Below, piece by piece: positions 21,093 to 44,977 of a stretch of 45,669 nucleotides of DNA; within the stretch, counting starts at the first letter, position 1; every line of letters starts with the position of its first letter. This DNA comes from Candidatus Rokuibacteriota bacterium (GTDB taxonomy: Bacteria; Methylomirabilota; Methylomirabilia; Rokubacteriales; CSP1-6). The stretch lies in NCBI GenBank assembly GCA_016209635.1, contig JACQWC010000057.1:1-45669 (forward strand), in the 5' to 3' direction. Below the pieces are notes generated by a model that saw only the letters and a program-made list of their open reading frames with translations, did no database searches and had not been told where the DNA came from. The position numbers and the translations under genes were made by a program.

Positions 21093-21656
21093 ATGGCGTG
21101 GGTTCGTACAGTGTCGCGGCGCGAGGCCGAGGGGGACCTGAAGGCCTTCTATCAGGAAGTCCGCAAGCAGCTCGGCCTGGTCCCGAACGTCATTGAATCC
21201 ACTTCGATCCGCCCGGAGTTCACTCTGGCGTGGATGCGGCTCTACTCGACGCTGATGTTCGGTCCGTCGGAGCTTACACGTATACAGCGGGAGATGATCG
21301 CGACCGTGGTCTCTGTCGCCAATTGCTGCCACTACTGAATCGAATCGCACGCGGCGCGGCTACGCGCCGAGGCGCGGGATCCGGCGCTCGCCGAGGCGAT
21401 CAAGCGAGACTATCGCCAGGCCCCGATCGACGCCAGGACCCGTGCCCTCCTCGACTTCGCCTGGAAGCTAACCCGCGAGCAGTGGGAGTGCCTTGAAGCG
21501 GACATCAAGGCGCTCAGGCGCGCGGACTGGAGCGACGAGGCGATCGTCGACCTGGTAGGAATCATTGGGTTCTTCAACTTCGTCTCGCGGGTTGCTGACG
21601 GCCTCGGCGTCGAGCCCGAGCGGTCGATGGTGCTGCGCCCCGCCGACGGCGCCTGA
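21093..21656 (+). CDS. AhpD-like (carboxymuconolactone decarboxylase family) selenoprotein, Sec82
   Basis: Read through TGA 21336-21338 this is a 187-aa AhpD/CMD-like protein of the peroxidase-related type. The first part (KAFYQEVRKQLGLVPNVIE, then LTRIQREMIATVVSVAN) leads straight into the active-site motif, here C79-H80-Y81-U82-x3-H86. This equals the family's CxxCxxxH with the TGA at the second Cys. The part after the TGA continues the family without a frame change (IDARTRALLDFAWKLTRE, VDLVGIIGFFNFVSRVADG) and ends at TGA 21654. Without recoding the protein would stop before its fold is complete. A hairpin begins 14 bases after the TGA. ATG 21093 has AGGAGG 7 bases upstream. Likely a thiol/selenol peroxidase or oxidoreductase; physiological reductant unknown. 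Confidence 0.85.
21352..21369 (+). promoter_or_regulatory. Bacterial SECIS-like hairpin for Sec82
   Basis: CGGCGCG pairs perfectly with CGCGCCG around a GCTA loop. The stem starts at base 14 and the loop at base 21 after the TGA, with G as first loop base. This fits the general bacterial SECIS pattern that recruits SelB. Confidence 0.75.
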
Positions 21657-21677
21657 GCTTCCCTGGGCAGGCGCTCT

Positions 21678-21825
21678 CTAGGAGTGTGTCCGAGTAATGG
21701 TGAGCCGCAAGTTTTCGGGGGACCGGAACACCTTGGCTCGGTCGAGATTGTCGATCCTGAGCCAAATGCGCGATCGCGATTTCGGTCGCCGAGCCATCGA
21801 ACTCATTACAGGGACAGACTCCTAG
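21678..21825. mobile_element. MITE-like element with 22-bp terminal inverted repeats
   Basis: CTAGGAGTGTGTCC and a following GTAATG (21678-21699) recur inverted at 21804-21825, matching at 19 of 22 positions. The 148-bp interior shows no gene. The outermost CTAG on each side is palindromic and may be part of the repeat or a duplicated target. The right end supplies the stop codon of the gene at 21822. No matching transposase is in the window. Confidence 0.65.
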
Positions 21826-22985
21826 GGGACGGGAAAGAGGTACTGAACGGCGATGTCGTACACGTCCTGCTGGAAGTTCCCGTTGTCGACGTTCGTCGCC
21901 GACGTCTCAGACTCATTGAAGACGTAGAACATTGGAAATTCGCCGCCGACGCTCGCCCAGACATCCACGGCTTCCTGAAGCGCGGTCGCGAATCCAATCA
22001 CGTCGCGTCCGCAAGTCGGACTCGGGCAGTCCGTGCTGCGTTCTTCGGGAACCCAGAGAGGCCAGTCGTCGGTAAAGCCGATGGTGAACCCAGCGCCCGT
22101 GTTCACCGTGGCCAGGTATGCGACGATCTGAGGGTATCCGGTTTCGTTAAAGGTGGTGACGTCCTCGTCCAGTCCCGAGAAGATTATCGAGACGCTTCGC
22201 ACGGCCGCGAACGCAGCAATGTTTTGCGCTGTCGTGAGGTTGTCGGACACGGCGTAGTCGCGCAGGAGGACTGGCGTGAATTGGAGGTAGATCGGTTTCG
22301 TCTTGAAGAACTTTACCGCCATCTTGAGTATGCGCTTGACGTGTGCCTCCCAGGCCTCGGGCGTCCATCCCGCGTCAAGAAACGCGACAGCCCCGCTCTC
22401 GGAGGGCTGCGCGACGAGATTGCCGTTGTGCCCGACTCCGATAACCCAGCCCGCCACGCGCGGATCCTTGCCGAACTGCTTGGACAGCGCGCGGAGGTAC
22501 CCCTCGTAGAGGTCGTAGAACGCGGGGTCCCAGACCTTGGGCACCGACACCGTGTCCCCCGCCGCGACGCCGCCGCCTGCAAAGCTGAGGCGGGGGACAC
22601 CCGCGTCGTACACCCACTTGGGAGTCTCGTCGTTGTCGCCGTTCGGATCCCCCTCGAGCGGCGTCTGGCTGTACGGCCCCGGCTTAAGCAGGACCGTCTT
22701 GCCGCCGGCGGTCCAGTCCGCCAGCTGCTGCTCGATGACCGACCAGTCGAACTGTCGATTGGTCGGCTCCAGCTGCGACCACTTGGGTCGGATGATCGCT
22801 CCGTCCAGAAGGGGATGGGTGTTGTTCGAGGTGTAGGGCGGGCTCGCTCCACCTACTTTGTAGTAGTAGTAGAGAGGGATCTTCTCCTGGCTCGTGCCCG
22901 GCGACGACCAGCCGAGCAAGATGAGCAGGAGGATGCTCGTCAGGAGGGCGATTTTCGTCGGCGCCGGACGGGGCGCGACTCTCAC
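21822..22985 (-). CDS. Exported TIM-barrel glycoside-hydrolase-like protein, paralogue 2
   Basis: A 387-aa protein, paralogue of the gene at 17626. Shared blocks in the same order: IPLYYYYK, HPLLDGAIIRPKWSQ, FDWSVIEQQLADW, GDPNGDNDETPKWVYD, VIGVGHNGNL, FTDDWPLWVPEE, CPSPTCGRDVIGF. I start at GTG 22985, which gives a normal signal peptide (IALLTSILLLILLGWSSPG); the open frame runs further upstream to 23210 but has no exported-protein start there. The C-terminus is shorter than in the paralogue and its TAG stop lies inside the right end of the MITE-like element, so the original tail may have been lost. Function as for the paralogue: probably an exported glycan-acting protein. Confidence 0.65.
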   Translation of the reverse strand: MRVAPRPAPTKIALLTSILLLILLGWSSPGTSQEKIPLYYYYKVGGASPPYTSNNTHPLLDGAIIRPKWSQLEPTNRQFDWSVIEQQLADWTAGGKTVLLKPGPYSQTPLEGDPNGDNDETPKWVYDAGVPRLSFAGGGVAAGDTVSVPKVWDPAFYDLYEGYLRALSKQFGKDPRVAGWVIGVGHNGNLVAQPSESGAVAFLDAGWTPEAWEAHVKRILKMAVKFFKTKPIYLQFTPVLLRDYAVSDNLTTAQNIAAFAAVRSVSIIFSGLDEDVTTFNETGYPQIVAYLATVNTGAGFTIGFTDDWPLWVPEERSTDCPSPTCGRDVIGFATALQEAVDVWASVGGEFPMFYVFNESETSATNVDNGNFQQDVYDIAVQYLFPVP

Positions 22986-23034
22986 GTCTGCAGTGTACCA
23001 TCCGTGGTCAGGTCCTACAAGTGCCGGAGGCGTG

Positions 23035-23412
23035 ATGCGAAGACCGATCGCTGCAAGCGTGCTGATCACTCTCGTGCTGGTGACCACCGGATGCTTGACC
23101 GTTGGTCGCGGCGCCGTCGCGGTGAAGCGAGAGGTGTTTCTCGTCCGATACGAGACGATCAGGAGCCTCGTGATCGAAGCGGCGGCGCTGCACGGCTTCC
23201 CGAACTTCACCTCCGAGTCGCGACCGTCGGATCTGAACGGATGGAAGGGCGATCTTTATTTCAGCCGCGAGACGCGCGCGGGCGTCGAGCAGCTGTTCGT
23301 GGAATTCGCCCCGTCGGGCGACGTGGTCGCGGTCGGCCTATTCGCGGTCGCGTCCGGCAGCACCTCCGATCAGGTCATCCGCGCGATCACCGACCGACTC
23401 GGCGGCCTATGA
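23035..23412 (+). CDS. Small lipoprotein, unknown function
   Basis: A 125-aa protein with a lipoprotein signal peptide: basic start MRRP, hydrophobic stretch and lipobox VTTGC with Cys20 as predicted lipidation site. ATG 23035 follows GGAGG. The mature part is a mixed alpha/beta domain (YETIRSLVIEAAALHGFP, LYFSRETRAGVEQLFVEF, TSDQVIRAITDRLGGL) that I do not recognise. It is divergent from the TIM-barrel-like gene with only 49 bases between starts, so the two may share a control region. Confidence 0.65.
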   Translation: MRRPIAASVLITLVLVTTGCLTVGRGAVAVKREVFLVRYETIRSLVIEAAALHGFPNFTSESRPSDLNGWKGDLYFSRETRAGVEQLFVEFAPSGDVVAVGLFAVASGSTSDQVIRAITDRLGGL

Positions 23413-23612
23413 GTCGAGGCGGAACGGCCGCGCGCGGGGCGTGGTTCCTATCGTGCCCAGATCGTTCGGCGTGGCAACGATGTTGCGGGGCGGCCGGCGT
23501 GGGAGGCCGAGAAGCGGTCCGGGCAAACCACTTGCCTTCTCACGTCGCTCGGGTATCCTCGAACGAGGAGCCGATCGATCCGTCCAGGGATTGTCGCCCC
23601 AAGATCCGTCGG

Positions 23613-23978
23613 ATGGAGAACGTCACAAGGAGGATGGCAATACAGCGAATGGTCGCGGCGTTGGTGGGAGTGTCCATCAGCGGGACGGTCGCCGGGAAGC
23701 GGGAGATCGGGCAGGCGAAGGTCGTCATGGTGAACCTCAAGACCGACTCGGGGCAGATCGCCGTCATGCTCGCGCCGAAGAACCTGCTCGATCCCGGGCT
23801 GACCGAGATGAAGGGGTCGGACTCGGTCGAGGTGACGGGCTCGAAGGTGAAGCACAACGAGCGCGACGTCATCCTGGCCAAGACCGTGAAGGTCGGTGAC
23901 AAGGAGTACACGCTGCGCAAGGACGAGGGCCAGGTGCTGGGCAAGGACGGCAACCCGATCGGCGCCAAGAAGAAGTAG
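23613..23978 (+). CDS. Small exported protein with Tat-like start, unknown function
   Basis: A 121-aa protein. The start carries a twin-Arg (NVTRRMAIQ) before a hydrophobic stretch (MVAALVGVSISGTVAG), so export by Tat or Sec is likely. The mature part is beta-rich (KVVMVNLKTDSGQIAVMLAP, SDSVEVTGSKVK, DVILAKTVKVGDKEYTLR), reminiscent of small OB-like folds, with a Lys-rich end. ATG 23613 has a weak ribosome site; ATG 23634 follows directly on AAGGAGG, too close for an ideal site. It ends 2 bases before the cysC-like GTG, so the two are probably cotranscribed. Confidence 0.6.
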   Translation: MENVTRRMAIQRMVAALVGVSISGTVAGKREIGQAKVVMVNLKTDSGQIAVMLAPKNLLDPGLTEMKGSDSVEVTGSKVKHNERDVILAKTVKVGDKEYTLRKDEGQVLGKDGNPIGAKKK

Positions 23979-23980
23979 CG

Positions 23981-24694
23981 GTGCGACCGGCCTTCACGAT
24001 CTGGTTCACCGGGCTGCCCTCGGCGGGCAAGAGCACGCTCGCGCGCCTGGTGGAGGCGGAGATCCTCCAGCGTGGCTTCCCGATCGTCGTCCTGGACGGC
24101 GACGAGGTCCGGACGTGGCTCACGGCCGGGCTCGGGTTCTCGCGCGAGGACCGGGACGAGAACATCAGGCGCATCTCCACGCTCGCGGCGTTCCTCAACC
24201 GCACGGGCGTGGCCGCCATCACCGCGGCCATCTCGCCGTACCGCCAGGCGCGCGAGCGGGCCCGGGGCCTGATCGGGAGGTTCGTCGAGGTCTACACCGA
24301 GTGCCCGCTCGAGATCTGCGAGGAGCGGGACGTCAAGGGCCTCTACGGGAAGGCGCGTCGCGGCGAGGTCCAGCGGTTTACCGGCGTGTCGGACCCGTAC
24401 GAGCCGCCCGCGACGCCCGAGGTGATCGTGCGGACGCACGAGGAGTCGAAGGAGGCGTGCGTCGCCCGGATCCTCGAGCGTGTCGAGGAACTGGGCTACC
24501 TCCCGCGCGGCCAGGTGCGCTACGAGGTTCTCCTCCCCGCCTACCTGTCGGGTGGCCTGGGCGACGACCCCGCGGCGTTCCTCTCCGAGCTGGCGAGCCG
24601 CGAGGCCACGCTGCGCGGCGCCGGGGTTGCGGTGACGGACGAGGAACGACAGGTCATCCAGCAACGGCTCCGCGCGCTGGGGTATCTGGAGTGA
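23981..24694 (+). CDS. cysC: Adenylylsulfate (APS) kinase with LGY-tail extension
   Basis: A 237-aa protein that would phosphorylate APS to PAPS. Motifs: Walker A FTGLPSAGKST (9-19), LDGDEVRTWL (38-47), FSREDRDENIRR (53-64), AAISPYRQARERAR and VYTECPLEICEERDVKGLY. Classical CysC is roughly 175-200 aa; the extra C-terminus holds a linker and ends in TDEERQVIQQRLRALGYLE, the same tail type as the phosphatases at 15820 and 18903. The GTG start follows the preceding stop by 2 bases. The only ATP sulfurylase trace here is a remnant at 20836, so APS must come from elsewhere. PAPS could serve sulfotransferases or sulfate reduction; a sulfated surface glycan fits the neighbourhood. Confidence 0.85.
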   Translation: MRPAFTIWFTGLPSAGKSTLARLVEAEILQRGFPIVVLDGDEVRTWLTAGLGFSREDRDENIRRISTLAAFLNRTGVAAITAAISPYRQARERARGLIGRFVEVYTECPLEICEERDVKGLYGKARRGEVQRFTGVSDPYEPPATPEVIVRTHEESKEACVARILERVEELGYLPRGQVRYEVLLPAYLSGGLGDDPAAFLSELASREATLRGAGVAVTDEERQVIQQRLRALGYLE

Positions 24695-24767
24695 GCGCCC
24701 CGGCGCGCTGCGACGCGGTCGAGTTCGAAACCCCGTTCGTCCCCTGACGCGCGTCCGGCGCGTCGCT

Positions 24768-27796
<3,029 letters not shown>

Positions 27797-27915
27797 GGCC
27801 GGCCACCGGAGGTCGGGCGACCGGCGGGAGGATCCTCTCGCAGAGGGCGGCGGGGGAGTCGGTGAGGTCGAGGACCCGGTAGCGGGGGAGGGACCGGGCT
27901 TCACCGGGAAGGGCG

Positions 27916-29298
27916 CTACGCCGGCCGGGCGAACCTGGGCTGCTCGATGTACGCGATCGCGCAGTCCCGGCCGTGGATCGCCTCGGCTCGCCGGAGCGCC
28001 TCCTCCACGCTCGCCGCGACCTCGAAGCCGAGATGGCGCGGGACCGCCGGGTCCTCCGGCGCCGCGACGATCACGGCGCCGACGTGGCGCAGCCGTTTCA
28101 GGGGATAGACGGCCATGATCGCGTGGACCGGGTGGAACCCGAAGCCGAACCGGTACGCATCGACGAGATCGGGCCGCCGCGCGTAATCGTCGGCGAAGCG
28201 CGTCATGATCTCCCAGGGGTCGCGCGTGAGCGGCAGCACGCGCTCCCAGATCTCCGGGTACGAGGGGTGCGTCACGCGGTCCCACCGGTCACGGACGGGC
28301 GTCGCCATGATGACCGTGCAGCCGGGCTTCCCCACGGCCTCGATGAGCCCCCCGAGATAGCCGAGGCCGGACGAGATCAGCGTGAGGATCGGGTTCACGT
28401 GGGAGAAGACGGCGTAGGGGCTCCAGTCCTGGACGCCGTAGACGAGCACGTCGACCCGCTCGCGCGCCAGCTCGCGCCGCGGCGGGAACATCCGGGCGAG
28501 CGTGTCGAGGACCTGCGCGCGCGTCTCGTCGACGCCGCCCGCCACGACCCGCGCGACGCGGAAGGCGTCGGCGAGCACCGTGTCGAGCTTGAAGATGCGC
28601 TTGCCGAGCCGCGCCTCGAGGTGCCGCCCCATCTCGTTCAGCACCACGTGCATGCGGTTACTGTGGACGGCCATCGACATGCCGTCGGGGGTGTGGGTGA
28701 GCCGGATGGACCGGTAGGTCGAGAGGCCGACGCACACGGACTTCCACCCGCCCGAGAAGCCGCGGTTGTAGCGCGCGTTGACGTAGACGGTGAGGTCCGA
28801 GTCGGCGACGAGGCGGTGCACCTCGACCTCCCAGCCGTGCTCGGGGCTGCGCCCGAGGTCCACCAGGTTCGCGCGGTCCTCGGCGTCGTGACAGATGAGC
28901 CGCGGGCCGAACTCCGCCACGAGATCCGGGCCGATCAGCCGCTCGAGCTCCGCCGGCCGGAGCATACGGTGAAGCGCGTTCGCACAGATCAGCGTGACGT
29001 GCGTCCGCGGGACACCCGCGGATTCCAGCTCCTCGAGCACCGCCCTGATCGCGACCCCGCGGATCGGGCCGTAGGAGGCGACCGTCGCGTCGTCGAAGGC
29101 GATCGTCACGTGCCCGCCCGGCCTGACCAGCTCGGCGATCCGGGGGAGGCCGAGCGGTCGCCCGAGCGCCCGGCGGACCGTCGACTCGAGATCGTCGACC
29201 GGCGGGAGCGCGGACAGCTCAGTGTTCGGGATGCGCACCGCGCGGTCCGGCAACTCGGCGGTGAGGGTGGTCTCGCCGTAGGGCAGGTCGACGTTCAT
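27916..29298 (-). CDS. LarA-family (DUF2088) nickel-dependent racemase-like protein
   Basis: A 460-aa protein. The N-terminal half shows VDLPYGETTLTAELPD, TIAFDDATV, then HVTLICANALHRML, corresponding to the lactate racemase N-domain with its substrate-binding GxG(x)H-like region. The C-terminal half has SVCVGLSTYRSIRLTHTPDG, VFSHVNPILTLISSGLGYLGG and the KPGCTVIMATP strand. LarA uses a nickel-pincer cofactor made by LarB, LarC and LarE, none of which is in the window. I chose ATG 29298 over longer frames because it starts the conserved domain. Divergent from the SIS gene (98 bases apart). 2-Hydroxyacid racemisation or epimerisation is likely; substrate unknown. Confidence 0.78.
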   Translation of the reverse strand: MNVDLPYGETTLTAELPDRAVRIPNTELSALPPVDDLESTVRRALGRPLGLPRIAELVRPGGHVTIAFDDATVASYGPIRGVAIRAVLEELESAGVPRTHVTLICANALHRMLRPAELERLIGPDLVAEFGPRLICHDAEDRANLVDLGRSPEHGWEVEVHRLVADSDLTVYVNARYNRGFSGGWKSVCVGLSTYRSIRLTHTPDGMSMAVHSNRMHVVLNEMGRHLEARLGKRIFKLDTVLADAFRVARVVAGGVDETRAQVLDTLARMFPPRRELARERVDVLVYGVQDWSPYAVFSHVNPILTLISSGLGYLGGLIEAVGKPGCTVIMATPVRDRWDRVTHPSYPEIWERVLPLTRDPWEIMTRFADDYARRPDLVDAYRFGFGFHPVHAIMAVYPLKRLRHVGAVIVAAPEDPAVPRHLGFEVAASVEEALRRAEAIHGRDCAIAYIEQPRFARPA

Positions 29299-29396
29299 TC
29301 CCGCTCCGTTGCCCGGGAGCCTAGTGGAGAGCGCCGTGGAGGTCAAGCGCGGGCGTGGCAGAATGGGAGCACTCGTTCGCCGGAGGAGACCCCCGC

Positions 29397-30479: not shown

Positions 30480-30495
30480 CCGCGCGGCGGTCCCG

Positions 30496-32211: not shown

Positions 32212-32227
32212 CCCGCGGGCTCGGTCC

Positions 32228-32252: not shown

Positions 32253-32289
32253 CGCGTCGGTGGAGGGCCCCGCAGTGTAGAGTGGGGCC

Positions 32290-35204: not shown

Positions 35205-35207
35205 GCC

Positions 35208-36512: not shown

Positions 36513-36525
36513 GGCAAGCCGTGAG

Positions 36526-36999
36526 CTACCGGGGAGGCGCCTCGAAGGGATAGCCTGCCGCGAACCACTCCTTGTCCCCGCCGTGCATCACCATGATCCG
36601 GTGGAAGCCCAGGTGATACGCCGCGACCGCGGCGTCGGGACTCTGGGCTCAGGTCGGCCCGCCGCAGTAGAAGACCAGGTGGGTGTCGCGCTCGGCGGGC
36701 AGCCGCTCGGGGTAGAGGAGACGCTTCGGCCGGCGAATGTCGACGAACCTCAGCGGGAAGTCCTCCGCGGGGATCGAGATCGCGCCGGGGAGGTGTCCCC
36801 GCTGGTAGTGGACCTCGTCGCGGGCGTCGACGAGGACGAAGGGCTCGCCGCCGAGCATCATTGCGCGGAGCTCCCTCGCGGAGATGAAGCGGATGCCCGC
36901 CGCCTCGAGCGGGCCGCGCCAGTCGGGCCGGTGGGCGCAGCCGCCGGGAGCGAGGGCAAGGACCGCCAGCAGCACGAACGCGAGTCGGCGCGTCCCCAT
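36526..36999 (-). CDS. Rhodanese-like lipoprotein selenoprotein, Sec117
   Basis: Read through TGA 36649-36651 this is a 157-aa single rhodanese domain with a lipoprotein signal (LAPGGC, Cys21). Domain motifs: FVLVDARDEVHYQRGHLPGA, HLVFY, then the active-site loop C112-G-G-P-T-U117. After the TGA the frame continues with SPDAAVAAYHLGFHRIMVMH and GGDKEWFAAGYP, the normal rhodanese C-terminus, to TAG 36526. Family members of this kind usually read YCGGPTC, so the TGA replaces the second Cys. The SECIS-like hairpin has a GGTC loop. Last gene of a minus-strand operon after an MBL-fold selenoprotein and an MFS transporter. It probably handles persulfide sulfur, perhaps selenium, at the outer face of the cell envelope. 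Confidence 0.87.
36618..36635 (-). promoter_or_regulatory. Bacterial SECIS-like hairpin for Sec117
   Basis: ACGCCGC pairs perfectly with GCGGCGT around a GGTC loop. Stem start at base 14 and loop at base 21 after the TGA, the same spacing as in both AhpD-like genes. The GGUC loop resembles that of the classical fdhF SECIS. Confidence 0.8.
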
Positions 37000-37081
37000 C
37001 GCGCTCCTACCTTAGCGGCCGTCGCGGGCGGGCGCCAGCCCGCCGTCTCGCCTGATCGGCGGGCCGCGCCGCAGGGGAGAG

Positions 37082-38329
37082 TTACACCCGCGCCGCGATC
37101 GCTCGCGCGGGTCCCGGGCCCATCGCGCCGGCGACGACCAGGCCGGAGAGGAGCGTGAGGGCAGCGACGAGGTGGATCGCGGCGCCGAGCCCGACGAGGT
37201 CGGCGACGATCCCGGCGAGGAGCGCGCCGACTGCGTAGCCGAGGTCGCGCCAGAAGCGGTAGACGCCGAGGCTCGTCGCGCGCCACGTCGGGTGCGTGTG
37301 GTCGGCGATCGCCGCGAGGAGGGTCGGGTACACCATGGCCGTGCCGAGGCCCTGGAGGACCGCGCCCAGGAGCCACGCCGGGTAGGACGGGACGAGCACC
37401 GTGAGCCAGATGCCTGCCGCCTGGACGACCATGCCCTCGGCGATCAGGCCCTTCCGCCCCCAACGGTCCGAGAGCGGTCCCGTCGCGACCTGGAGGAGGC
37501 CCCAGACGCTCGGATAGACCGCCTTGATCACGCCGATCGACTCGACGCCGAGGCCGTAGGCGGCGAAGAAGAGCGGGTAGATCCCCCAGGACATCCCGTC
37601 GTTCAGGTTGTTGACGAGCCCGGCCTGGCAGGCGGCGAAGAGGCTCACGTTCCCCACGCTCGTCACGAAGAAGACGTGGCCGAGCGACGGCCGGGGCCCC
37701 GCGCCCCCCGGCTGCGCGCTCGCCGCTTCCAGATGCGCGTGCGCGCGGGTCTCCCTCACGAAGAGGAGCGAGAGGAGGAGGCCGACCACGGCGATCCCGA
37801 TGCCGAGGTAGAAGGGCTGGGGACGGAGCGCCGAGTGCGCGGCGATATACCCGGTCGCCCAGGACGTCACGCCGACGGCGAAGTAGCCGGCGAACTCGTT
37901 GAGCCCCAGCGCGAGGCCGCGCCGCCGGGGCCCCACGAGATCGATCTTCATGATGACCGTCATCGACCACGCCATCGCCTGGTTCACCCCGAGCAGCACG
38001 TTCGCGAGGTCGATCCACCACCACGCCGGGGCGTAGATCAGGAGGAACGGCACGGGCAGGGCGAAGAGCCACCCGGTGACGAGGACGGGCTTTCGCCCGA
38101 TGCGGTCGGAGACTCGCGCGGCGACGAGGTTCAGCACCGCCTTGGTCACCCCGAAGCTCACGATGAAGGAGGTGATGGCGGTCTTCGAGGCGAGCCCGAA
38201 CTCCTGCTCGCCGAGAAGCGGGAGCACCGTGCGCTCGAGCCCCACCATCGCTCCCACGAACGCGTTGAGCACGACGAGGAGCGCGAACTGCCCGAGGTTC
38301 TCGCGGAGACCGAGCCGGAGCTCCCTCAT
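37082..38329 (-). CDS. MFS transporter
   Basis: A 415-aa major facilitator protein with 12 predicted helices. The loop between helices 2 and 3 reads VSDRIGRKPV (the family's GxxxDRxGRR-like motif) and its repeat in the second half is LSDRWGRKGL. Start ATG 38329 overlaps the MBL gene stop by 4 bases, and 82 bases separate it from the rhodanese gene. Lying between two sulfur-related selenoprotein genes it may move a sulfur or selenium compound, but substrate cannot be read from sequence; drug-efflux-type members look similar. Confidence 0.82.
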   Translation of the reverse strand: MRELRLGLRENLGQFALLVVLNAFVGAMVGLERTVLPLLGEQEFGLASKTAITSFIVSFGVTKAVLNLVAARVSDRIGRKPVLVTGWLFALPVPFLLIYAPAWWWIDLANVLLGVNQAMAWSMTVIMKIDLVGPRRRGLALGLNEFAGYFAVGVTSWATGYIAAHSALRPQPFYLGIGIAVVGLLLSLLFVRETRAHAHLEAASAQPGGAGPRPSLGHVFFVTSVGNVSLFAACQAGLVNNLNDGMSWGIYPLFFAAYGLGVESIGVIKAVYPSVWGLLQVATGPLSDRWGRKGLIAEGMVVQAAGIWLTVLVPSYPAWLLGAVLQGLGTAMVYPTLLAAIADHTHPTWRATSLGVYRFWRDLGYAVGALLAGIVADLVGLGAAIHLVAALTLLSGLVVAGAMGPGPARAIAARV

Positions 38330-39063
38330 TCCCCGGCGAGGTTCCGCAGGCGGTTCTCCGCGAACGCCGCGGGCTGCGGCGGGAGATCCGCGAGGACCCA
38401 GCTGACGAATTCGGATCTCGACGCACGCTGGAGCGCCGGATTGAACCGGCGCTCGAAGCCGATCGTCGAGCCCGCCTTGCCGGAGAGCCCCTTGCCACAG
38501 GCCGCGCCGCCGAAGTGCGCCGGGTAAACCTCGATGTGGTCCGGCAGCGTCATGAGCCGGCCGTGGAGGCTCTCGTAGAGCTGCTCGGCGAGCGGGCCCT
38601 CGGCCGCGTCACCGAGGAGGTCGGGGCGGCCCACCCCTCCGGAGAAGAGCGTGTCGCCCGTCAGGACGAACCAGGGCTCGCGCGTCCGCGAGCGGTCGGT
38701 CACGAGGATCGAGATCCCGTCGCGCGTGTGGCCCGGCGTGTGAAGGATCTCGAGCCAGACGTTCCCCATGCTGTGCTCGTCGCCGTCCGCGAGGTCGCAG
38801 TGGGGGAACCGGGCCTCGGCCGACTCGTGCAGGAAGACAGGCGCCCCCGTCGCCCGGGCGAGGCGGTGCGCGCCCGAGACGTGGTCCGCCTGGACGTGGG
38901 TCTCGAAGATGTGCGTGATGCGCATGGACTTCTCGGCCGCCGCCTCGAGGTACGGCTCGATGTCGAGCTGTGGATCCACCACAGCGCAGGCTGCTGCGCC
39001 CGCTCAGCCGAGGAGGTAGCTGGCGCAGCCGGTCTTCGGCCGGAGGAACTGCCGGAAGATCAT
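38326..39063 (-). CDS. MBL-fold (persulfide dioxygenase/CstB-like) selenoprotein, Sec20
   Basis: Read through TGA 39004-39006 this is a 245-aa metallo-beta-lactamase-fold protein. It starts at ATG 39063 behind a strong AAAGGAGGG site and runs MIFRQFLRPKTGCASYLLGU20, then VVDP, FETHVQADHVSGAHRL (metal ligands H56, D60, H61) and HTPGHTRDGIS, FVLTGDTLFSGGVGRPDL. These are hallmarks of ETHE1/CstB-like persulfide dioxygenases. CstB-type proteins as I recall read SYLIGC at the U position. Without recoding, callers would start at an internal GTG (38982), losing the first strand. Its stop overlaps the MFS gene by 4 bases. It would oxidise glutathione- or CoA-persulfide to sulfite; the rhodanese two genes later fits. 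Confidence 0.83.
38967..38985 (-). promoter_or_regulatory. Bacterial SECIS-like hairpin for Sec20
   Basis: GCTGTGG pairs perfectly with CCACAGC around a TGGAT loop that starts 26 bases after the TGA and has G in second position. A competing hairpin GGCGCAG/CTGCGCT lies closer (loop at base 11), so the assignment is a little less certain than for the other genes. Confidence 0.65.
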
Positions 39064-39147
39064 GGCCACCCTCCTTTCGTCGTGACTGTCGTCTCCCCCT
39101 CCCCCCTGGATACCCGGCCTGGAGGTATAAGCGCCAATACTGTTTTC

Positions 39148-39162
39148 TTATCGCTCCGATAA
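39148..39162. promoter_or_regulatory. Likely LysR-type operator (T-N11-A palindrome)
   Basis: TTATCG-CTC-CGATAA is a perfect 6-bp inverted repeat whose inner part is T-N11-A (39149-39161), the usual LysR-type recognition motif. It lies 15 bases before the LysR start and 85 before the divergent MBL start, as expected for an autoregulated divergent promoter. Confidence 0.65.
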
Positions 39163-39177
39163 GGTTAGGCTTACGGC

Positions 39178-40098
39178 ATGACGCTGCGGCAGTTCGAGGT
39201 CTTCCTGGCGGTCGCCCGCGCGCGGAGCTTCCGTCGCGCCGCCGAGGCTCTGCACCTGAGCCAGCCCGCCCTCTCGCAGCATGTCGCCGAGCTGGAGACG
39301 GAGCTGAGCGCCCGGCTCCTCGACCGCCTGGGCCGGAGCGTGACGCTGACCGAGGCCGGCCAGCTCCTCGAGGAGCACGCGCAGCGGCTCTTCGCGACGC
39401 TGACGAGCGCTCGCGAGGCGATCGGCGAGCTCCAGGGGCTCCGCCGCGGGTCGCTCCTGATCGGGGCCAGCACCACGCCCGGCATCTACGTCCTGCCCGG
39501 GGTGATCGGCGCGTTCCGGCAGCGCTATCCGGGCGTCGACCTCAGGCTCCGGATCGCCAACTCGCGCGTGATCGAGGAGCGGCTCCGCGCGAACGAGCTG
39601 GATCTCGGCGTCGTCGGCGGTCACCACCTGGGCCCGGGCGAGGAGTGTCTGGCGGCGGGGCTCCTCGACGAGCTGATGCTGCTCGTCCCGCCCTCCCATC
39701 CATGGGCCCGCCGCCGGGAGATCCCGCCCGAGCGGCTCGCGGAGCAGCCGCTCCTGGTCCGTGAGGAGGGGTCGGCGACGCGCCGGGTCACCGAGCGCGC
39801 GCTGGAGCGGGCGGGCATCACCTTCCGGATCGCGATGGAGCTGGACCACATCGAGGCGATCAAGCAGGCGGTGATGGCCGGTCTGGGCGTGGCGTTCCTC
39901 TCGATCCACGCGGTACGCGGGGAGGTGGCCACGGGCCGGCTCCAACCACTCCGGCTCCGCGGGATCCGGATCCAGCGCCACTTCCACGTGATCCATAGCG
40001 AAGCCCGGACGCTCAGCCCGAGCGCGCGGGCGTTCACCGCGCTCCTCGAGGAGACGCGGGGGAGGCGGCGGGGGGCTCCGCGGGCGCCCTCAGGGTGA
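39178..40098 (+). CDS. LysR-type transcriptional regulator (CysL/CbbR-like)
   Basis: A 306-aa protein. The N-terminal winged helix-turn-helix shows MTLRQFEVFLAVARARSF, AAEALHLSQPALSQHVAELE and LLDRLGRSVTLTEAG. The effector domain starts near GSLLIGASTTPGIYVLP and contains RLRANELDLGVVGG. The family usually controls a divergent operon in response to a small ligand; here that operon is MBL-MFS-rhodanese. In CysL or CbbR relatives ligands are sulfur or carbon metabolites, so a sulfur signal is possible. The 3' end overlaps the convergent UspA gene by 9 bases. Confidence 0.88.
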   Translation: MTLRQFEVFLAVARARSFRRAAEALHLSQPALSQHVAELETELSARLLDRLGRSVTLTEAGQLLEEHAQRLFATLTSAREAIGELQGLRRGSLLIGASTTPGIYVLPGVIGAFRQRYPGVDLRLRIANSRVIEERLRANELDLGVVGGHHLGPGEECLAAGLLDELMLLVPPSHPWARRREIPPERLAEQPLLVREEGSATRRVTERALERAGITFRIAMELDHIEAIKQAVMAGLGVAFLSIHAVRGEVATGRLQPLRLRGIRIQRHFHVIHSEARTLSPSARAFTALLEETRGRRRGAPRAPSG

Positions 40099-40533
40099 CC
40101 CGGCGGTCTCCTTCACGATGAGGACGGAGCAGGGAGCCGAGCGGACGAGGTTCTGGGCCGTCCCTCCCATGATTCGACCCAGGACGTTCGAGTGGCCCGT
40201 GGAGCCGGCGACCAGGAGGTCGAACGCCCCCTCCCGCGCGAACTTCACGATCGTCTCGACCTCGTGGCCTGGCCTGACGATGGCCTCGAGCGGGACGCCG
40301 TGAACGCCGGCCGTCGTCTTCGCCTCGAGCGTGATCCGCTCGAAGAAGCCCTCGATCTGCTCGCGCGCCTCGTCCACCTCGTCGATGGAGGAGGCGAAGT
40401 ACGGGAGGTGCTCCCGGACGGACAACGAGAAGAGCCGAGCGCCGGTGATCTTGGCGAGCTCGATCGCGGCGTGGAGGGCGTGCTTGGCGCCCTCCGAGCC
40501 GTCGTAGGCGACGAGGATCTTCCTATACATCAT
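40090..40533 (-). CDS. Universal stress protein (UspA family)
   Basis: A 147-aa single Usp domain. It shows KILVAYDGSEGAKHALHAA at the start, a VRPGHEVETIV strand-helix, DLLVAGSTGHSNVLGRIM and GGTAQNLVRSAPCSVLIVK, including the G-x2-G-x9-G-(S/T) ATP-binding pattern. It overlaps the antiporter gene by 11 bases, so it should be co-expressed with it under the fluoride riboswitch. UspA genes are among those reported near fluoride riboswitches. Role: probably stress sensing, possibly ATP-dependent regulation of the antiporter; this is inference. Confidence 0.87.
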   Translation of the reverse strand: MMYRKILVAYDGSEGAKHALHAAIELAKITGARLFSLSVREHLPYFASSIDEVDEAREQIEGFFERITLEAKTTAGVHGVPLEAIVRPGHEVETIVKFAREGAFDLLVAGSTGHSNVLGRIMGGTAQNLVRSAPCSVLIVKETAGSP

Positions 40534-41683
40534 CGGCCTCCGCTGCGCCCGGGAGCCCGGGGCGCGCCGCTCGGGAGATCTCGGGCCCGAGCTTCGGGGA
40601 GAACCAGCGCTGCGCGATGACCGTCGGGATCACGGCGCTCGCCACGACGGCCGTGACGAGCACGGAGAACTGCGCGCGATCGAGGATCCCCGCGTTCAAC
40701 CCGTAGAGCGAGGAGATCGTGCCGAAGGTCAGCCCGGTGGACATGAGCAGGGTCGTGAACATCGCGTCGCCGGGCAAGTATCGCTTCGCCAGCGGGAACA
40801 CGCCGGAGAATTTCGTCACCTGCTTGACGGCGAAGAGGAGGAGCAGGAGGCGGACGTTCGCCCAGACGAGCGCCAGCGACACGTTCATGCCGCCCTTGAG
40901 GAAGAAGAACGGCGTCAGCAAGGCGAACGCCACGACGCGGAAGCGTCGCTGGAGCTCGCGCTGCGCGTGGAAGGTCGGCGCCAGCGCGAGCCCGAGGACG
41001 AAGGCAGGCAGCACGGCGTGGCTCTGCGCCCGATCGGCGAAGAACATGAGGACGAGGAGGGCGGCGAAGGCGCCCTTGATCTCGGGCTCGATGACCCGCT
41101 CGCCGTAGCGCGAGAAGAACCACGGCTGGAGCCCGACCATCAGCCAGATGACGAGGAGCGACGCGGCCAGGAACGGGACCAGCCACCAGGTCGGGTGGAT
41201 GAAAAGCGCCGCGAGCGCCAGCGCGGTGCCGAAGTCCGTCACGAACGTGGACGCCATGATGAGCTTGCCGAGCGGCGTGTGGGTCAATCCGGTCTCGACC
41301 AGCACGGCGTAGACCACGGCCAGCGAGGTCGTGGAGAGGGCGACGCCGGCGATCTGGGCCGCGGGAGTCGTCCACCCGAGCGCCCAGGCGCAGAAGAGCC
41401 ACGCGCCGAGGAACGGCGCCGCGAAGGAGACGCCCCCGATCAGCAGGCTCGCCTTGAGCTTCTCCCGCATCACCTGCGGGTCCACCTCGGCGCCGGCCAG
41501 GAAGGTCAGAAGGATGCTGCCGAACGACGCGAGGAAGTCCATCCACGGAGGACTCTGGAGCCCGAGGAAGTTCCCCGCGACGACGCCGAGGCTGATCTCG
41601 ATGAGCGCGACGGAGACGCCCAGCTCGACCGAGGCCATGCTCGCGACCAGGATCAGGAGGCCGGCGATCCCGAGCTGCTCCAT
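40523..41683 (-). CDS. CPA2-type cation/proton antiporter under fluoride riboswitch control
   Basis: A 386-aa membrane protein of about 12 helices. I start at ATG 41683 (MEQLGIAGLLILVASMASVE); the longer frame to 41782 runs into the riboswitch terminator. Conserved parts include SFGSILLTFLAGAEVDP, IAGVALSTTSLAVVYAVLVE, FVTDFGTALALAALF with the central Asp, and FFFLKGGMNVSLALV. This is the Na+/H+ exchanger domain (KefB/NapA type). Antiporters of this kind are known riboswitch-controlled fluoride-response genes, so fluoride tolerance or the associated proton load is the probable role. UspA is cotranscribed. Confidence 0.85.
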   Translation of the reverse strand: MEQLGIAGLLILVASMASVELGVSVALIEISLGVVAGNFLGLQSPPWMDFLASFGSILLTFLAGAEVDPQVMREKLKASLLIGGVSFAAPFLGAWLFCAWALGWTTPAAQIAGVALSTTSLAVVYAVLVETGLTHTPLGKLIMASTFVTDFGTALALAALFIHPTWWLVPFLAASLLVIWLMVGLQPWFFSRYGERVIEPEIKGAFAALLVLMFFADRAQSHAVLPAFVLGLALAPTFHAQRELQRRFRVVAFALLTPFFFLKGGMNVSLALVWANVRLLLLLFAVKQVTKFSGVFPLAKRYLPGDAMFTTLLMSTGLTFGTISSLYGLNAGILDRAQFSVLVTAVVASAVIPTVIAQRWFSPKLGPEISRAARPGLPGAAEADDV

Positions 41684-41741
41684 CCGACCGTCCCTTCCCC
41701 GCGCGTCCCCGGGGCCGCGCGGTGCTCGAGGCGCCCCGTAC

Positions 41742-41779
41742 AAAAAAGAACCCCCACCGGTGTCGTGACCGGCAGGGGT
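41742..41779 (-). terminator. Intrinsic terminator, expression platform of the fluoride riboswitch
   Basis: ACCCCTGCCGGT pairs with ACCGGTGGGGGT (12 bp, two wobbles) around CACGAC, followed by TTCTTTTTT. The 5' arm begins with the ACCCC that the aptamer needs for its pseudoknot, so folding of the two is mutually exclusive: fluoride binding should prevent termination and turn the antiporter on. Confidence 0.88.
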
Positions 41780-41829
41780 CATCAGCCCCGCGATGCGCGA
41801 GGCGGTTTCAGGCGAACCCCATCGCCCCG
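41772..41829 (-). promoter_or_regulatory. Fluoride riboswitch (crcB motif)
   Basis: The RNA read on the minus strand opens with GGCGATGGGGTTCGCC (GGCGA/TCGCC stem), continues with TGAAA, an 8-bp stem GCCTCGCG/CGCGGGGC with a CAT loop, and ends in CTGATGACCCCTGCC. These are the conserved segments of the fluoride aptamer, including the GGGGT loop that can pair with the later ACCCC as the pseudoknot. It lies between the stop of the MFS gene (41868) and the antiporter start (41683). Confidence 0.92.
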
Positions 41830-41867
41830 TGTTGGCGACTCCGATTATCGCGCGCGCGGCCCACCGG

Positions 41868-43106
41868 TCAAGCTCTTCGCGGAGCGAGCGAGCCCGGTCG
41901 GAACGTGGCCAGGCCGAGGAACGCGAGGGCGGAGAAGGCGGCGCCGGCCAGGAAGGTCGCCGCGGGCCCGGACTGGTCCCAGAGCCAGCCGGCGAGGAGG
42001 CTCGCGACGAGCATGGCGGCCCCGGTCGTCAGGTTGAAGAGCCCGAAGGCCGTTCCCCGCAGCCGCGACGGCGCGCTGTCCGCCACGAGCGTGGCGAGAA
42101 GCCCCTGCGTCAGCCCCATGTGGAGTCCCCAGAGCGCGACGCCCGCCAGGACCGCGGAGACCCCCGCGGCCAGGGCGAGCACGAGGTCGCTCGCGATCAG
42201 GACGGCGAGGCCGAGCGCCAGCACGGCCCGGCGGTCGATCCGGTCCGAGAGCCGGCCCGCCGGGTAGGCGGAGGCGGCGTACACCGCGTTCATCGTCACC
42301 ATCACGAGGGGCACGAGGGCGGGAGAGAGCCCGACGCTCTGAGCGCGGAGCACGAGGAACGCCTCGCTGAAGCGGGCGAGCGTGAGCACGGCGGCGATCA
42401 GCACGAGCCACCAGTAGGCTCGGCCGAGCCCGCGGGCCTCGGCGGCATGGATCGGCGATCGCGCCTCGCCCACCGCGCGCGGTGCCCCGAGCTCCTCGAC
42501 ACCGAAGATCAGGAGCGCGAGCGCCAGGAAGGCGGGGAGCACGGCGATCCAGAACACGAGGCGGAAGTCGCTCAGCGTCAGCGTCATGAGCAGCGTGGCG
42601 AGGAGCGGCCCCGCGAACGCGCCGACCGTGTCGAGCGACTGACGCAGGCCGTAGGCGGCGCCCCGCAGGTGCGGCGGCGCCAGGTCCGCCACCAGCGCGT
42701 CGCGCGGCGCGCCCCGGATGCCCTTGCCGATCCGGTCGACGAACCGCGCCGCGAGCACCCAGCCGACCGACGGGGCGAGCGGGAACACCGGCTTCGTGAA
42801 CGCGGCGAGCCCGTATCCGGCCGTCACGAGGAGCTTCCGCCGGCCGAGATAGTCGCTCAGCGTGCCGGAGAAGACCTTGGACATCGAGGCCGTGGCCTCG
42901 GCGATCCCCTCGATCAGCCCGACGAACGTGGCGGTCGCCCCGAGGACCGAGACGAGGAAGACCGGCAGGAGGCTATGGATGATCTCGGAGGAGACGTCCA
43001 TGAACATGCTGACGAAGCCGAGCGCCCAGATGCCGCGCGGGATCGCTCCGAGCCCGTCCCTCCGGGGCTTCGCGCGCTCGGCCGCCGTGTCGCCGCCGTC
43101 AGGCAC
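41868..43106 (-). CDS. MFS transporter (second type)
   Basis: A 412-aa major facilitator protein. The start ALGFVSMFMDVSSEIIHSLL, LSDYLGRRKLLVTAGYGL and RFVDRIGKGIRGAPRDALVA are typical of a widespread MFS subgroup; the second-half loop is LSDRIDRRAVLALG. About 12 helices. It is the only gene upstream of the riboswitch on this strand, so its transcript may run into it, but the aptamer lies after its stop. The C-terminus ends in basic residues. Substrate unknown. Confidence 0.83.
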   Translation of the reverse strand: MPDGGDTAAERAKPRRDGLGAIPRGIWALGFVSMFMDVSSEIIHSLLPVFLVSVLGATATFVGLIEGIAEATASMSKVFSGTLSDYLGRRKLLVTAGYGLAAFTKPVFPLAPSVGWVLAARFVDRIGKGIRGAPRDALVADLAPPHLRGAAYGLRQSLDTVGAFAGPLLATLLMTLTLSDFRLVFWIAVLPAFLALALLIFGVEELGAPRAVGEARSPIHAAEARGLGRAYWWLVLIAAVLTLARFSEAFLVLRAQSVGLSPALVPLVMVTMNAVYAASAYPAGRLSDRIDRRAVLALGLAVLIASDLVLALAAGVSAVLAGVALWGLHMGLTQGLLATLVADSAPSRLRGTAFGLFNLTTGAAMLVASLLAGWLWDQSGPAATFLAGAAFSALAFLGLATFRPGSLAPRRA

Positions 43107-43171
43107 GCGCGTATCTTAGCCGGGCGGCGTTGTCCGCGTCGATCCGGTGTGGTACCTCTCGGAGGCAGGCG

Positions 43172-43291
43172 ATGATTTCACGGCGAGATTTTCTTTCAGC
43201 GACCACGCGGGCCGGCGTCGCGGCGGTTGGCGCTGGGGGGCGGCATGATGGGCAGGCGGGGGATGGGCGACGCACATGGAGGGCGACATGA
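43172..43291 (+). pseudogene. Tat signal-peptide stub (39 codons)
   Basis: ATG 43172 follows GGAGG at good spacing and encodes MISRRDFLSATTRAGVAAVG, a textbook twin-arginine signal (SRRDFL), but after the hydrophobic part the frame turns into GC-biased residues and stops. No exported domain follows. It is either the relic of a truncated Tat substrate or a very short leader peptide for the lipoprotein gene at 43311. Confidence 0.5.
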
Positions 43292-43310
43292 TCAGCCTGG
43301 TGCGGATCGG

Positions 43311-44171
43311 ATGACGGGGGCGCTCGTCGCCGGACTCACCGCCGTCGCCGTGCTGCTCGGCGGCTGCGCGCGGGGGCCGGCTCCCGCGGAGGTGGCCCTC
43401 GAGTACGGCCGGGCCGTCTATGCCAACGACCCCGCGCGGATCTATCGCCTCGTCTCGGCCGAGGACCGGCGGGCGAGGGACGAGGAGACGTTCCGCCGCC
43501 AGCAACGGCCGCTGAGCGCCCCGGTCCTCGAGATCGTCGGCCAGCTCGCGTCGTTCATCACCGCGACGCCGGTCGAGACGAAGATCGACGGCGCGCGGGC
43601 CATCGTGCGGCTCAGCTTCAAGCTCCCGAATGCGAACGCGCCCGAGGTCAAGACGATCCTCCTCGACTGGGACGTGGCGCGCCTGGACAAGCTCGCCGAG
43701 CCCGAGCGCCGCCGGATCCGTGAGCGCCTGGACGAGCTGCACCGGGCGGGACGGCTGCCGATGCTCGAGGGCGAGGAGACGCTCGAGCTGGTCAGAGACG
43801 ACTCCGGCTGGCACGTCTTCCTCAACTGGGCGGGCGGCGTCCGCCTGCGCTTCGCCGCCACGGTGCCCGACGCCACGCGGCTTCGCGTGAGCGTCGACCC
43901 GACACAGATCATGGTGGCGCCCGGCGAGCGCGTGCGCGTCACCGTCCGCGCGACGAACCTCGCCCAGCGCGACCTGACGACGAAGGTCGCCCACCGGATC
44001 GAGCCCGGGCCCGACTCCCGCTTTCTGGCGCTCCTCCAGTGCCCGCTCTTCGTTCCGGCGACCCTGGCGCCCGGGGAGACGAAGGAGTTCGTGTCCGAGT
44101 ATCTCCTCCTGCGCGACGTGCCCGGCCGAGTGAAGCAGATCGAGGTGACCTACGAGTTCCCGCTCGGGTAG
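43311..44171 (+). CDS. Lipoprotein with Cox11/CtaG-like C-terminal domain
   Basis: A 286-aa protein. I chose ATG 43311 because it gives a proper lipoprotein signal (VAGLTAVAVLLGGC, Cys18); the longer frame adds only low-complexity residues. The first domain (VALEYGRAVYANDPARIYRL, EIVGQLASFITATPVETKID) resembles small secreted NTF2-like folds. The C-terminal part (VDPTQIMVAPGERVRVTVRA, LLQCPLFVPATLAPGETKEF, KQIEVTYEFPLG) follows the Cox11 pattern. Cox11 delivers copper with a CFCF pair; here the site reads CPLF, so one of the two Cys is missing. Copper delivery is therefore doubtful. Confidence 0.6.
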   Translation: MTGALVAGLTAVAVLLGGCARGPAPAEVALEYGRAVYANDPARIYRLVSAEDRRARDEETFRRQQRPLSAPVLEIVGQLASFITATPVETKIDGARAIVRLSFKLPNANAPEVKTILLDWDVARLDKLAEPERRRIRERLDELHRAGRLPMLEGEETLELVRDDSGWHVFLNWAGGVRLRFAATVPDATRLRVSVDPTQIMVAPGERVRVTVRATNLAQRDLTTKVAHRIEPGPDSRFLALLQCPLFVPATLAPGETKEFVSEYLLLRDVPGRVKQIEVTYEFPLG

Positions 44172-44227
44172 GGGAGACCGGGCTCTCCCTCACGCAAAGC
44201 CGGGCCGGGGTTGACCAGAGTCGTCGT

Positions 44228-44977
44228 CTACAGGCGCTTGCGGAGCGCGAGCACGGCGATGTAGGTGCCGGGAGTCTTCGTGCGCTCGTTGCGAGCGCGC
44301 GCGAGGACGGTCGGCTCGGCGAAGCCCGCGTCGCGGAAGAGCGCCAGAAGCCCCGCTTCTGGCAGCGCCCCGGCAATTCAGCGGAACCAGTCGTCGATCG
44401 TCTGCACCTCGGCGGGCGGCAAGGGATCGGTGAAGGTGATCTCGGCCACGGCCGCGCGGCCGGCGGGTCTCAGCACCCGATGAAGCTCGCGGGCGACCGT
44501 CGCCTTGTCCGGGCAGAGGTTGAAGAACCCGTTCACCAGCGCCGCGTCGAACGTCCCCGCGTCGAAGGGCATGGCTTCGGCATCGGCGTTCACGAACTCG
44601 ACACTCTTGATGCCGAGGATCGCGGCGAGCGTCTGCGCTCGGGCGATCATCGCCTCGGCCGAGTCGAGCCCCGTCACCGAGCCGCCCGGGGACACCGCGC
44701 GCGCGGCAAGGACCGCATCGAGACCGGCGCCCGAGCCGAGGTCGAGCACCCGCTCGCCCGGTCGGAGATCCAGGTGCGGGTGGAGGTACGCGAGCCCCGT
44801 GAAGGCCTCCGAGGCGAGCGGCGGGAGCGAGGCGAGGACGTCCTCCGGGTAGCCGACCTGTCGCGCCAGCGCTGGGCCGACGGGGAACCGGAAGGCCTGC
44901 GTCGGTGTCTCGGCCACCCGGGTGAACGTCGCCCTCACCCCCTCGCGGATCTCGCTAGCCGTGACCTTCCCCGCCAT
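44228..44977 (-). CDS. ArsM-like SAM-dependent methyltransferase selenoprotein, Sec200
   Basis: Read through TGA 44378-44380 this is a 249-aa class I methyltransferase. Motif I is VLDLGSGAGLDAVLAARAV, with GLDSAEAMIARA, VEFVNADAEAMPFD, NGFFNLCPDK and RELHRVLRPAGRAAVAEI. After DDWFR the TGA is residue 200, followed in frame by IAGALPEAGLLALFRDAGFA and ending at TAG 44228. ArsM-type arsenite methyltransferases have a conserved Cys at this position before a G/A-G-A-L motif, so Sec replaces it. The other As-binding Cys that ArsM has near its N-terminus are not seen, so arsenite itself may not be the substrate. A selenol could instead act in methylating a soft metal or metalloid. Expected ribosome site GAGAGG is 11 bases upstream. 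Confidence 0.82.
44343..44363 (-). promoter_or_regulatory. Bacterial SECIS-like hairpin for Sec200
   Basis: GCCAGAAGC pairs perfectly with GCTTCTGGC (9 bp) around a GGG loop. The loop starts 24 bases after the TGA with G first. This is the longest and cleanest of the five elements. Confidence 0.82.

Follow-up and report, generated by a model that had tools for sequence, protein, structure and literature searches.

A stretch of 45,669 nucleotides from a Candidatus Rokuibacteriota bacterium (NCBI GenBank assembly GCA_016209635.1, contig JACQWC010000057.1, positions 1 to 45,669; called the window below) holds five genes with an in-frame TGA, and the question that it raises is whether these codons are read as selenocysteine (Sec) and, if so, in what kinds of protein. 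The five UGAs, each followed by a hairpin resembling a bacterial selenocysteine insertion sequence (SECIS), are likely read as Sec, and the gene at 38326-39063, which has a metallo-beta-lactamase (MBL) fold in the structure model, is predicted to encode an uncatalogued, free-standing relative of the type III (CstB-type) persulfide dioxygenases in which UGA stands for a conserved Cys. On the sequence evidence given below, the probability of this reading is put at roughly 0.88.

Five genes with an in-frame TGA

The in-frame TGAs reported in a first-pass annotation of the window were found at 21336 on the forward strand and at 25055, 36651, 39006, and 44380 on the reverse strand, each within one open frame. 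The genes and their hairpins are as follows.

21093-21656, forward: predicted AhpD-like selenoprotein gene 1 (CMD family, TIGR01926; NCCHYU), 187 amino acids, predicted Sec codon 21336-21338
21352-21369, forward: predicted SECIS hairpin of AhpD-like 1, 7 bp, CGGCGCG-GCTA-CGCGCCG
24768-25295, reverse: predicted AhpD/CMD-like selenoprotein gene 2 (PF02627; NDCHYU), 175 amino acids, predicted Sec codon 25055-25053
25023-25039, reverse: predicted SECIS hairpin of AhpD-like 2, 7 bp, ATGCCTT-GGG-AAGGCAT, the weakest of the five
36526-36999, reverse: predicted rhodanese-domain selenoprotein gene (PF00581; FYCGGPTUAQS), 157 amino acids, predicted Sec codon 36651-36649
36618-36635, reverse: predicted SECIS hairpin of the rhodanese gene, 7 bp, ACGCCGC-GGTC-GCGGCGT
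38326-39063, reverse: predicted MBL-fold, persulfide-dioxygenase-like selenoprotein gene (SYLLGU), 245 amino acids, predicted Sec codon 39006-39004 (residue 20)
38967-38985, reverse: predicted SECIS hairpin of the MBL-fold gene, 7 bp, GCTGTGG-TGGAT-CCACAGC
44228-44977, reverse: predicted arsenite-methyltransferase-like (ArsM-like) selenoprotein gene (PF13847; DDWFRUIAG), 249 amino acids, predicted Sec codon 44380-44378 (residue 200)
44343-44363, reverse: predicted SECIS hairpin of the ArsM-like gene, 9 bp, loop GGG

A family match spans the TGA in every case (Pfam in four genes, NCBIfam in the ArsM-like gene), with conserved coding sequence on both sides of the UGA, as is required of a bacterial selenoprotein gene.

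TGA and cysteine in relatives

Relatives were collected from 95 Methylomirabilota genomes, the window's own included, and from GTDB contigs. For the MBL-fold family, 79 of 80 GTDB loci cover residue 20, and they carry Cys (62 loci) or TGA (17 loci) and no other residue. The Sec-type loci from both sources number 48, which include several genomes twice and yield 31 distinct hairpin stretches; all 46 that cover the column have TGA. For the other genes the best 30 loci per family were taken, own copy included, so that the counts do not sample all matches. The ArsM-like column holds 18 TGA, 11 Cys, and 1 TAA; the AhpD-like 1 column holds 21 TGA and 6 Cys among 27 covered loci; and AhpD-like 2 has TGA in 30/30. 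All six rhodanese copies at 69% identity or more have TGA, and two distant loci align with Cys at the column, of which only L132 (FYCNGHPECKKS, 34% identity) is convincing. Exchange of UGA and Cys was thus found for the MBL-fold, ArsM-like, and AhpD-like 1 families, and for the rhodanese through that one distant locus. The single ArsM-like TAA lies in L169 (genome G004, 76% complete), where no SelB match was found at an E value of 1e-40; the combination would fit loss of the Sec trait.

Since TGA sits where Cys otherwise sits, neither error nor reassignment explains it. A code in which TGA is read throughout as some other residue, or a set of TGAs produced by point mutation or sequencing error, is scarcely credible: broken genes do occur in the window, where a copy of an IS110 transposase has a TGA without a fitting hairpin, but dozens of genomes share the TGA of these families at a Cys column, along with a hairpin that Cys copies lack, and the scatter of TGAs over non-Cys columns that either process would need is not shown by these families. 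A tRNA-Sec with anticodon TCA is also present. The code is otherwise standard and genes of the window, the MBL-fold gene among them, end in TGA, which bears out the view of the first-pass annotation that reassignment is unlikely.

Selenocysteine machinery

The assembly to which the window belongs comprises 4.16 Mb in 270 contigs (92.6% complete, 7.9% contamination) and contains the full set of selA, selB, selC, and selD, for which a search of the genome had been proposed; selB and tRNA-Sec, whose absence was to count against Sec, are both there. The tRNA-Sec (69.7 bits; gathering threshold, 47) shares a contig with selB (379.5 bits; cut-off, 242) and selA (593.9 bits; cut-off, 267.9). The selD gene (351.7 bits; cut-off, 125) lies on another contig and has one in-frame TGA of its own.

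Hairpins downstream of the TGAs

Hairpins were evaluated with a simple implementation of the rules for bacterial SECIS elements given in the available text of PMC13188914: a loop of 3 to 9 nucleotides with G in one of its first two positions, starting 16 to 37 nucleotides after the UGA, and an energy of -7.5 kcal/mol or lower. The reported geometry was reproduced. In AhpD-like 1, AhpD-like 2, and the rhodanese gene the stem starts at base 14, has 7 bp, and leads to a loop at base 21 with G first; the MBL-fold hairpin has 7 bp and a loop at base 26 (TGGAT, G second); and the ArsM-like hairpin has 9 bp and a loop at base 24 (GGG), its stem being extendable by a tenth pair, U-G. All five genes satisfy the rules, AhpD-like 2 reaching the energy threshold only with its lower stem (-13.8 kcal/mol). 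The five stems have no sequence in common, and their geometries differ.

A rule-fitting hairpin of -7.5 kcal/mol or lower also follows 142 of the 1,021 other TGAs on both strands of the window, and because of this background a hairpin alone is weak evidence; the decision therefore falls to the TGA/Cys columns and to conservation. The exact 14/21/7 geometry follows only 2 of those 1,021 TGAs, and its repetition by chance is unlikely.

In order to compare copies within each family, the hairpin of each distinct sequence was ranked among 200 synonymous shuffles encoding the same peptide; mean energies are given as observed/shuffled, in kilocalories per mole. MBL-fold TGA copies averaged -11.1/-2.4, with 30/31 ranking among the best 10, while Cys copies averaged -3.8/-4.1 with 0/61. 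The corresponding values were -9.9/-4.5 (14/21) and -4.8/-3.5 (0/6) for TGA and Cys copies of AhpD-like 1, -11.4/-5.3 (4/6) and -1.1/-2.7 (0/2) for the rhodanese, and -11.5/-4.9 (13/18) and -2.3/-2.2 (0/11) for the ArsM-like gene; AhpD-like 2 TGA copies averaged -9.0/-4.3. Hairpins of TGA copies thus far surpass those of synonymous shuffles, an advantage that Cys copies lack. Loss of the hairpin in relatives that keep the TGA, which the first-pass annotation had named as fatal to its proposal, was not what was found: these relatives keep both.

In the MBL-fold family all 217 of 217 pair cells of the stem are paired in 31 sequences ranging from 100 down to 57% protein identity, and the only changes are one compensatory replacement of U-A by C-G, accompanied by a Gln-to-Arg replacement, and one U-G. 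The codons beneath the hairpin are frozen: codons 27 to 32 have a mean entropy of 0.09 bit versus 1.03 bit in 46 other conserved columns of residues 1 to 110 (permutation P of about 1e-5), and codons such as GCT (30/31) and CCA (31/31) are retained in a window of 69% G+C. Covariation was rejected as the main proof, the MBL-fold stem being too invariant and the ArsM-like and AhpD-like 2 geometries mixed; synonymous shuffles, codon freezing, and Cys controls were used because covariation is too thin.

The proposal of a SelB with one tight spacing preference found only partial support. Among hairpins of -6 kcal/mol or lower, the loop starts at base 18 or 21 in AhpD-like 1, 20 to 22 in AhpD-like 2, 21 in the rhodanese, 26 in the MBL-fold family, and 18, 19, 22, or 24 in the ArsM-like family, so that relatives use 18, 19, 20, 21, 22, 24, or 26, and homologues of AhpD-like 1, one of the three genes with a start at 21, use 18. 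The SelB spacing is a preferred range of 18 to 26 inside the published 16 to 37, not one setting.

Distribution and origin of the MBL-fold gene

The gene is present in at least 29 of the 95 Methylomirabilota genomes, which gave 31 near-full-length MBL-fold sequences with exactly one TGA; three more genomes have partial ones with one TGA. SelB scored over its cut-off in 28 of these 29 genomes; the 29th (G015) gave a contig-edge fragment. The named best matches of the protein are from Candidatus Rokubacteria or Rokuibacteriota. The window's own genome also has an MBL-fold relative without TGA, in a longer frame (C72:25207-25902, 465 amino acids). A single origin of Sec in the family was rejected, one origin being found in 6% of bootstrap trees; the two Sec clades share nearly the same 19-nucleotide hairpin. 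Individual copies depart from the common form. Locus L120 (genome G090) keeps the TGA and hairpin but lacks the CGK motif near residue 189, and neither the transporter nor the regulator gene described below was found beside it. In L023 and L107 the TGA frame runs for 322 amino acids into the transporter start, past the usual stop at about 245.

The gene might instead start downstream of the TGA and encode a protein of about 218 amino acids resembling hydroxyacylglutathione hydrolase, the upstream frame being there by chance. Public records appear to say so: the best 120 of 6,871 public matches have lengths of 217 to 219 amino acids, and their first residue corresponds to V28 or V29, beyond the UGA and within the hairpin, where GTG codons lie. 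This alternative is nevertheless very improbable, for residues 1 to 19 are conserved from an invariant Met while their codons vary, they form strands 1 and 2 of the modeled fold, and Cys homologues have the same N terminus with Cys at the TGA position. With translation through the UGA, those starts are a systematic database error, which also affects the rhodanese: the best 120 of 246 public rhodanese matches all stop at YCxxxx, at the residue before the UGA. Both proteins are thus cut at the UGA among these matches, the MBL-fold copies N-terminally and the rhodanese copies C-terminally.

Fold and enzyme class of the MBL-fold protein

The structure model of the MBL-fold protein (mean predicted local distance difference test score, 94.8) matches the Protein Data Bank (PDB) entries 3tp9 (template modeling [TM] score, 0.95) and 3r2u (0.92 to 0.94) best, followed by named persulfide dioxygenases and ETHE1 (0.84 to 0.86), and a sequence search of the PDB likewise gave 3tp9 and 3r2u first and ETHE1-type enzymes after them. 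In 3tp9 and 3r2u alike, residue 20 is Cys and the motif reads THIHADF. According to the available text of PMC6060420, the persulfide dioxygenase motif is T-H-x-H-A-D-H, the last His is F or Y in type III, to which the THIHADF form belongs, and the iron ligands of AcPDO are H57, H113, and D130. By alignment alone, H56, H112, and D137 of the window protein correspond to these ligands; some Cys forms have His at position 137. The fold by model and the 2-His-1-Asp positions by alignment are therefore both present, and the spacing of R146 and D148 appears to match that of R139 and D141 in AcPDO.

Two features count against the relationship. The motif reads THVQADH, with Gln in place of H59 of AcPDO, a residue considered important in the available text of PMC6060420, and Gln is found there in 120/120 of the best 120 of 6,871 public matches (in alignment A4, 3 of 19 Sec rows keep the second His, two as THxHADH and one as THAHGDH); in addition, the stretch after YPAH differs from 4ysb. 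As the THxHADH motif is lacking, the protein is classed as a persulfide dioxygenase relative that may work alike, not as a persulfide dioxygenase.

The same Gln would suit a Sec protein that is a glyoxalase II or another hydrolase. The best NCBIfam match is GSH_gloB, at 93.1 bits and below its cut-off of 200.8, and JGI names many copies hydroxyacylglutathione hydrolase. Such an assignment is unlikely, though it is the strongest of the alternatives: sequence and fold searches rank 3tp9 and 3r2u, and then named persulfide dioxygenases, ahead of glyoxalase II entries, and the protein retains both the 2-His-1-Asp positions and a GRxD motif. In glyoxalase II the second His serves the second metal, which was also counted against a hydrolase.

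Evidence against the overall reading

Several further observations weigh against Sec at all five positions and against the relationships drawn above. In the MBL-fold family covariation is thin, with one compensatory cell and a score reached by 35 of 500 shuffles, and the Sec forms fall in two clades of the tree. AhpD-like 2 is the weakest gene: its upper stem alone has -6.5 kcal/mol (published threshold, -7.5) and ranks 45th of 200 shuffles, only 6 of 29 copies rank in the best 10, no Cys form was found among the 30 loci, and distant loci overlap those of AhpD-like 1 (for example, L208/L244). Pair counts on the ArsM-like and AhpD-like 2 alignments (A2 and A3, with 12 of 18 and 12 of 29 distinct TGA sequences, respectively) are not enough on their own to argue for a common structure, and a slid register equals or exceeds the true one on several measures. 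Most of the 24 distant loci among the 30 of the rhodanese align to another residue or another motif, and one close copy (L130) carries a TAG as well. The sel genes and the window lie on different contigs of an assembly with 7.9% estimated contamination, and since SelB is over its cut-off in 84 of the 95 genomes, its co-occurrence discriminates little and was rejected as evidence.

Neighbors and a possible role

The MBL-fold gene is flanked as follows.

37082-38329, reverse: major facilitator superfamily (MFS) transporter gene (PF07690), whose start overlaps the MBL-fold stop (ATGA)
39178-40098, forward: divergent LysR regulator gene, best NCBIfam model the selenium metabolism-associated LysR

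An MFS gene stands beside the MBL-fold gene in 45 of the 48 Sec-type loci and a divergent LysR gene upstream in 37, several contigs ending first. The window LysR scores 243.3 bits against NF040786, the selenium metabolism-associated LysR model (cut-off, 250). This was the top model for all nine LysR proteins compared, the window's and 8 relatives out of the 37 loci (L118, with an unclear start, was left out), and two were over the cut-off (254.9 and 255.1). The five TGA genes are not one system; a shared operon is conceivable here for the MBL-fold and rhodanese genes alone. A conserved operon of these two was rejected, since they were found side by side only in the window's own genome; in the five close relatives of the rhodanese, the 1.5 kb around the gene did not show this arrangement.

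It is possible to outline how the parts would work together. SelB carrying Sec-tRNA would bind the hairpin, in which one of the first two loop positions is G, and suppress the UGA. The MBL-fold protein would keep a mononuclear iron site (H56, H112, and D137) and may oxidize or transfer sulfane sulfur, with Sec20 serving as a reactive selenol, either to take up sulfur or to protect against overoxidation. Sec20 lies at the end of strand 2 in the model. In the MBL topology this end presumably lies away from the iron, and for that reason Sec20 is unlikely to be a direct iron ligand. The MFS protein might export the product, and the LysR protein might adjust the operon to the selenium or sulfane-sulfur state. 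A broader and tentative proposal, which we regard as doubtful on balance, is that Methylomirabilota carry an uncatalogued selenium-dependent sulfur module, made up of a free-standing Sec persulfide-dioxygenase-like enzyme whose iron-site motif is altered (THxQADH), an exporter of its own, and a LysR that senses selenium. The handling of sulfane sulfur or selane would then follow the selenium supply, and the enzyme would have stayed hidden because gene finders place its start inside the SECIS. If selenium is confirmed, the natural replacement of Cys by Sec, maintained across dozens of genomes, would mark residue 20 as chemically important and make its role testable.

Other selenoprotein candidates and features

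The description of the organism as selenoprotein-rich fits three further AhpD-like matches in its genome with one in-frame TGA each (C208:22857, C98:31855, and C162:23260), the SelD gene, and a further selenoprotein candidate on contig C255 (L264, near 11241, reverse strand), a small protein that is DsrE-like by eye, contains VPIWVUGRC, and has a hairpin whose energy is -17.1 kcal/mol. A scan of a 191-kb sample gave 7 candidates, 1 judged clear, and was rejected as too insensitive for a density, having recovered two of the five window genes along with three false-looking window matches; with other settings, under which one training gene was in the wrong frame, it recovered four of the five.

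Five rhodanese frames (L133, L134, L135, L138, and L139, from genomes G013, G012, G011, G014, and G010, respectively) carry a pair of in-frame TGAs spaced two codons apart (FYUTUPEEKSAAR); other relatives have YCTUP at this place. They resemble the catalogued CxU rhodanese with Sec at both positions (UxU).

The window also contains the following.

242-1351, reverse: IS110-family transposase frame with an in-frame TGA at 847
41766-41835, reverse: fluoride riboswitch, at the 5' end of a Na+/H+ exchanger-family gene (40523-41782, reverse)
45363-45669, reverse: class A RNase P RNA, cut by the window end

The IS110 frame was rejected as a sixth selenoprotein; its best fitting hairpin has only -3.7 kcal/mol, and it is therefore most likely a broken copy.

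Comparison with known selenoproteins and persulfide dioxygenases

A 2026 review (PMC13188914) lists 119 prokaryotic selenoprotein families or subfamilies, and its table includes AhpD-like CxxU, CMD-like CxxU, rhodanese UxxS, CxU, and UxxxxU, and arsenite methyltransferase UxxG forms. Four of the five window genes are members or relatives of these known kinds. AhpD-like 1 scores 157.5 bits against TIGR01926 (cut-off, 81.8). AhpD-like 2 is over the cut-off for PF02627 (37.1 versus 23) and below those for TIGR01926 (51.7 versus 81.8) and NF053654, a YciW-related (seleno)protein model (92.1 versus 310). Both share the CxxU motif with the AhpD-like and CMD-like selenoproteins of that table, and nothing essential differs. 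The rhodanese gene is over the cut-off for PF00581 (59.9 versus 22.2) and below those for NF045694 (59.0 versus 805) and NF041203 (39.5 versus 115). Like known rhodanese selenoproteins it has a rhodanese domain and UxxS at Sec117, and the distance from C112 to U117 (C112-x4-U117) equals that between the two Sec residues of the UxxxxU motif in TsoB, the best NCBIfam match of the gene; unlike them, it is a single domain with Cys first. The ArsM-like gene resembles the UxxG arsenite methyltransferase selenoproteins in its methyltransferase domain and in U-I-A-G at Sec200; at 150.3 bits against a cut-off of 263 for NF008823, it is a distant relative of that family at best.

The MBL-fold gene is new, in that it represents a predicted selenoprotein family whose fold had not been listed. 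There is no MBL entry in the available 119-entry table of PMC13188914, no NCBIfam model (June 2026) matched by the protein is a selenoprotein model, and no MBL-fold selenoprotein family was found in the literature searched. If selenium is confirmed, a fold absent from the 119 catalogued prokaryotic families will be added to them. As described in the available text of the same review, Deng et al. (2026) predicted 63 selenoproteins in a Methylomirabilota metagenome-assembled genome; going by that account, it resembles the organism studied here in phylum and in being selenoprotein-rich.

The closest relatives of known kind to the MBL-fold protein are the MBL-rhodanese fusions 3tp9 and 3r2u, with type III persulfide dioxygenases such as CstB. 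We take 3r2u, from Staphylococcus aureus, to be CstB-like. The window protein shares with them the MBL fold, the iron-ligand positions, Cys or Sec at residue 20, and the CGK motif around C189. It differs in having TGA, and thus predicted Sec, for Cys, no rhodanese domain, THVQADH in place of THIHADF, and an MFS transporter gene that follows its own.

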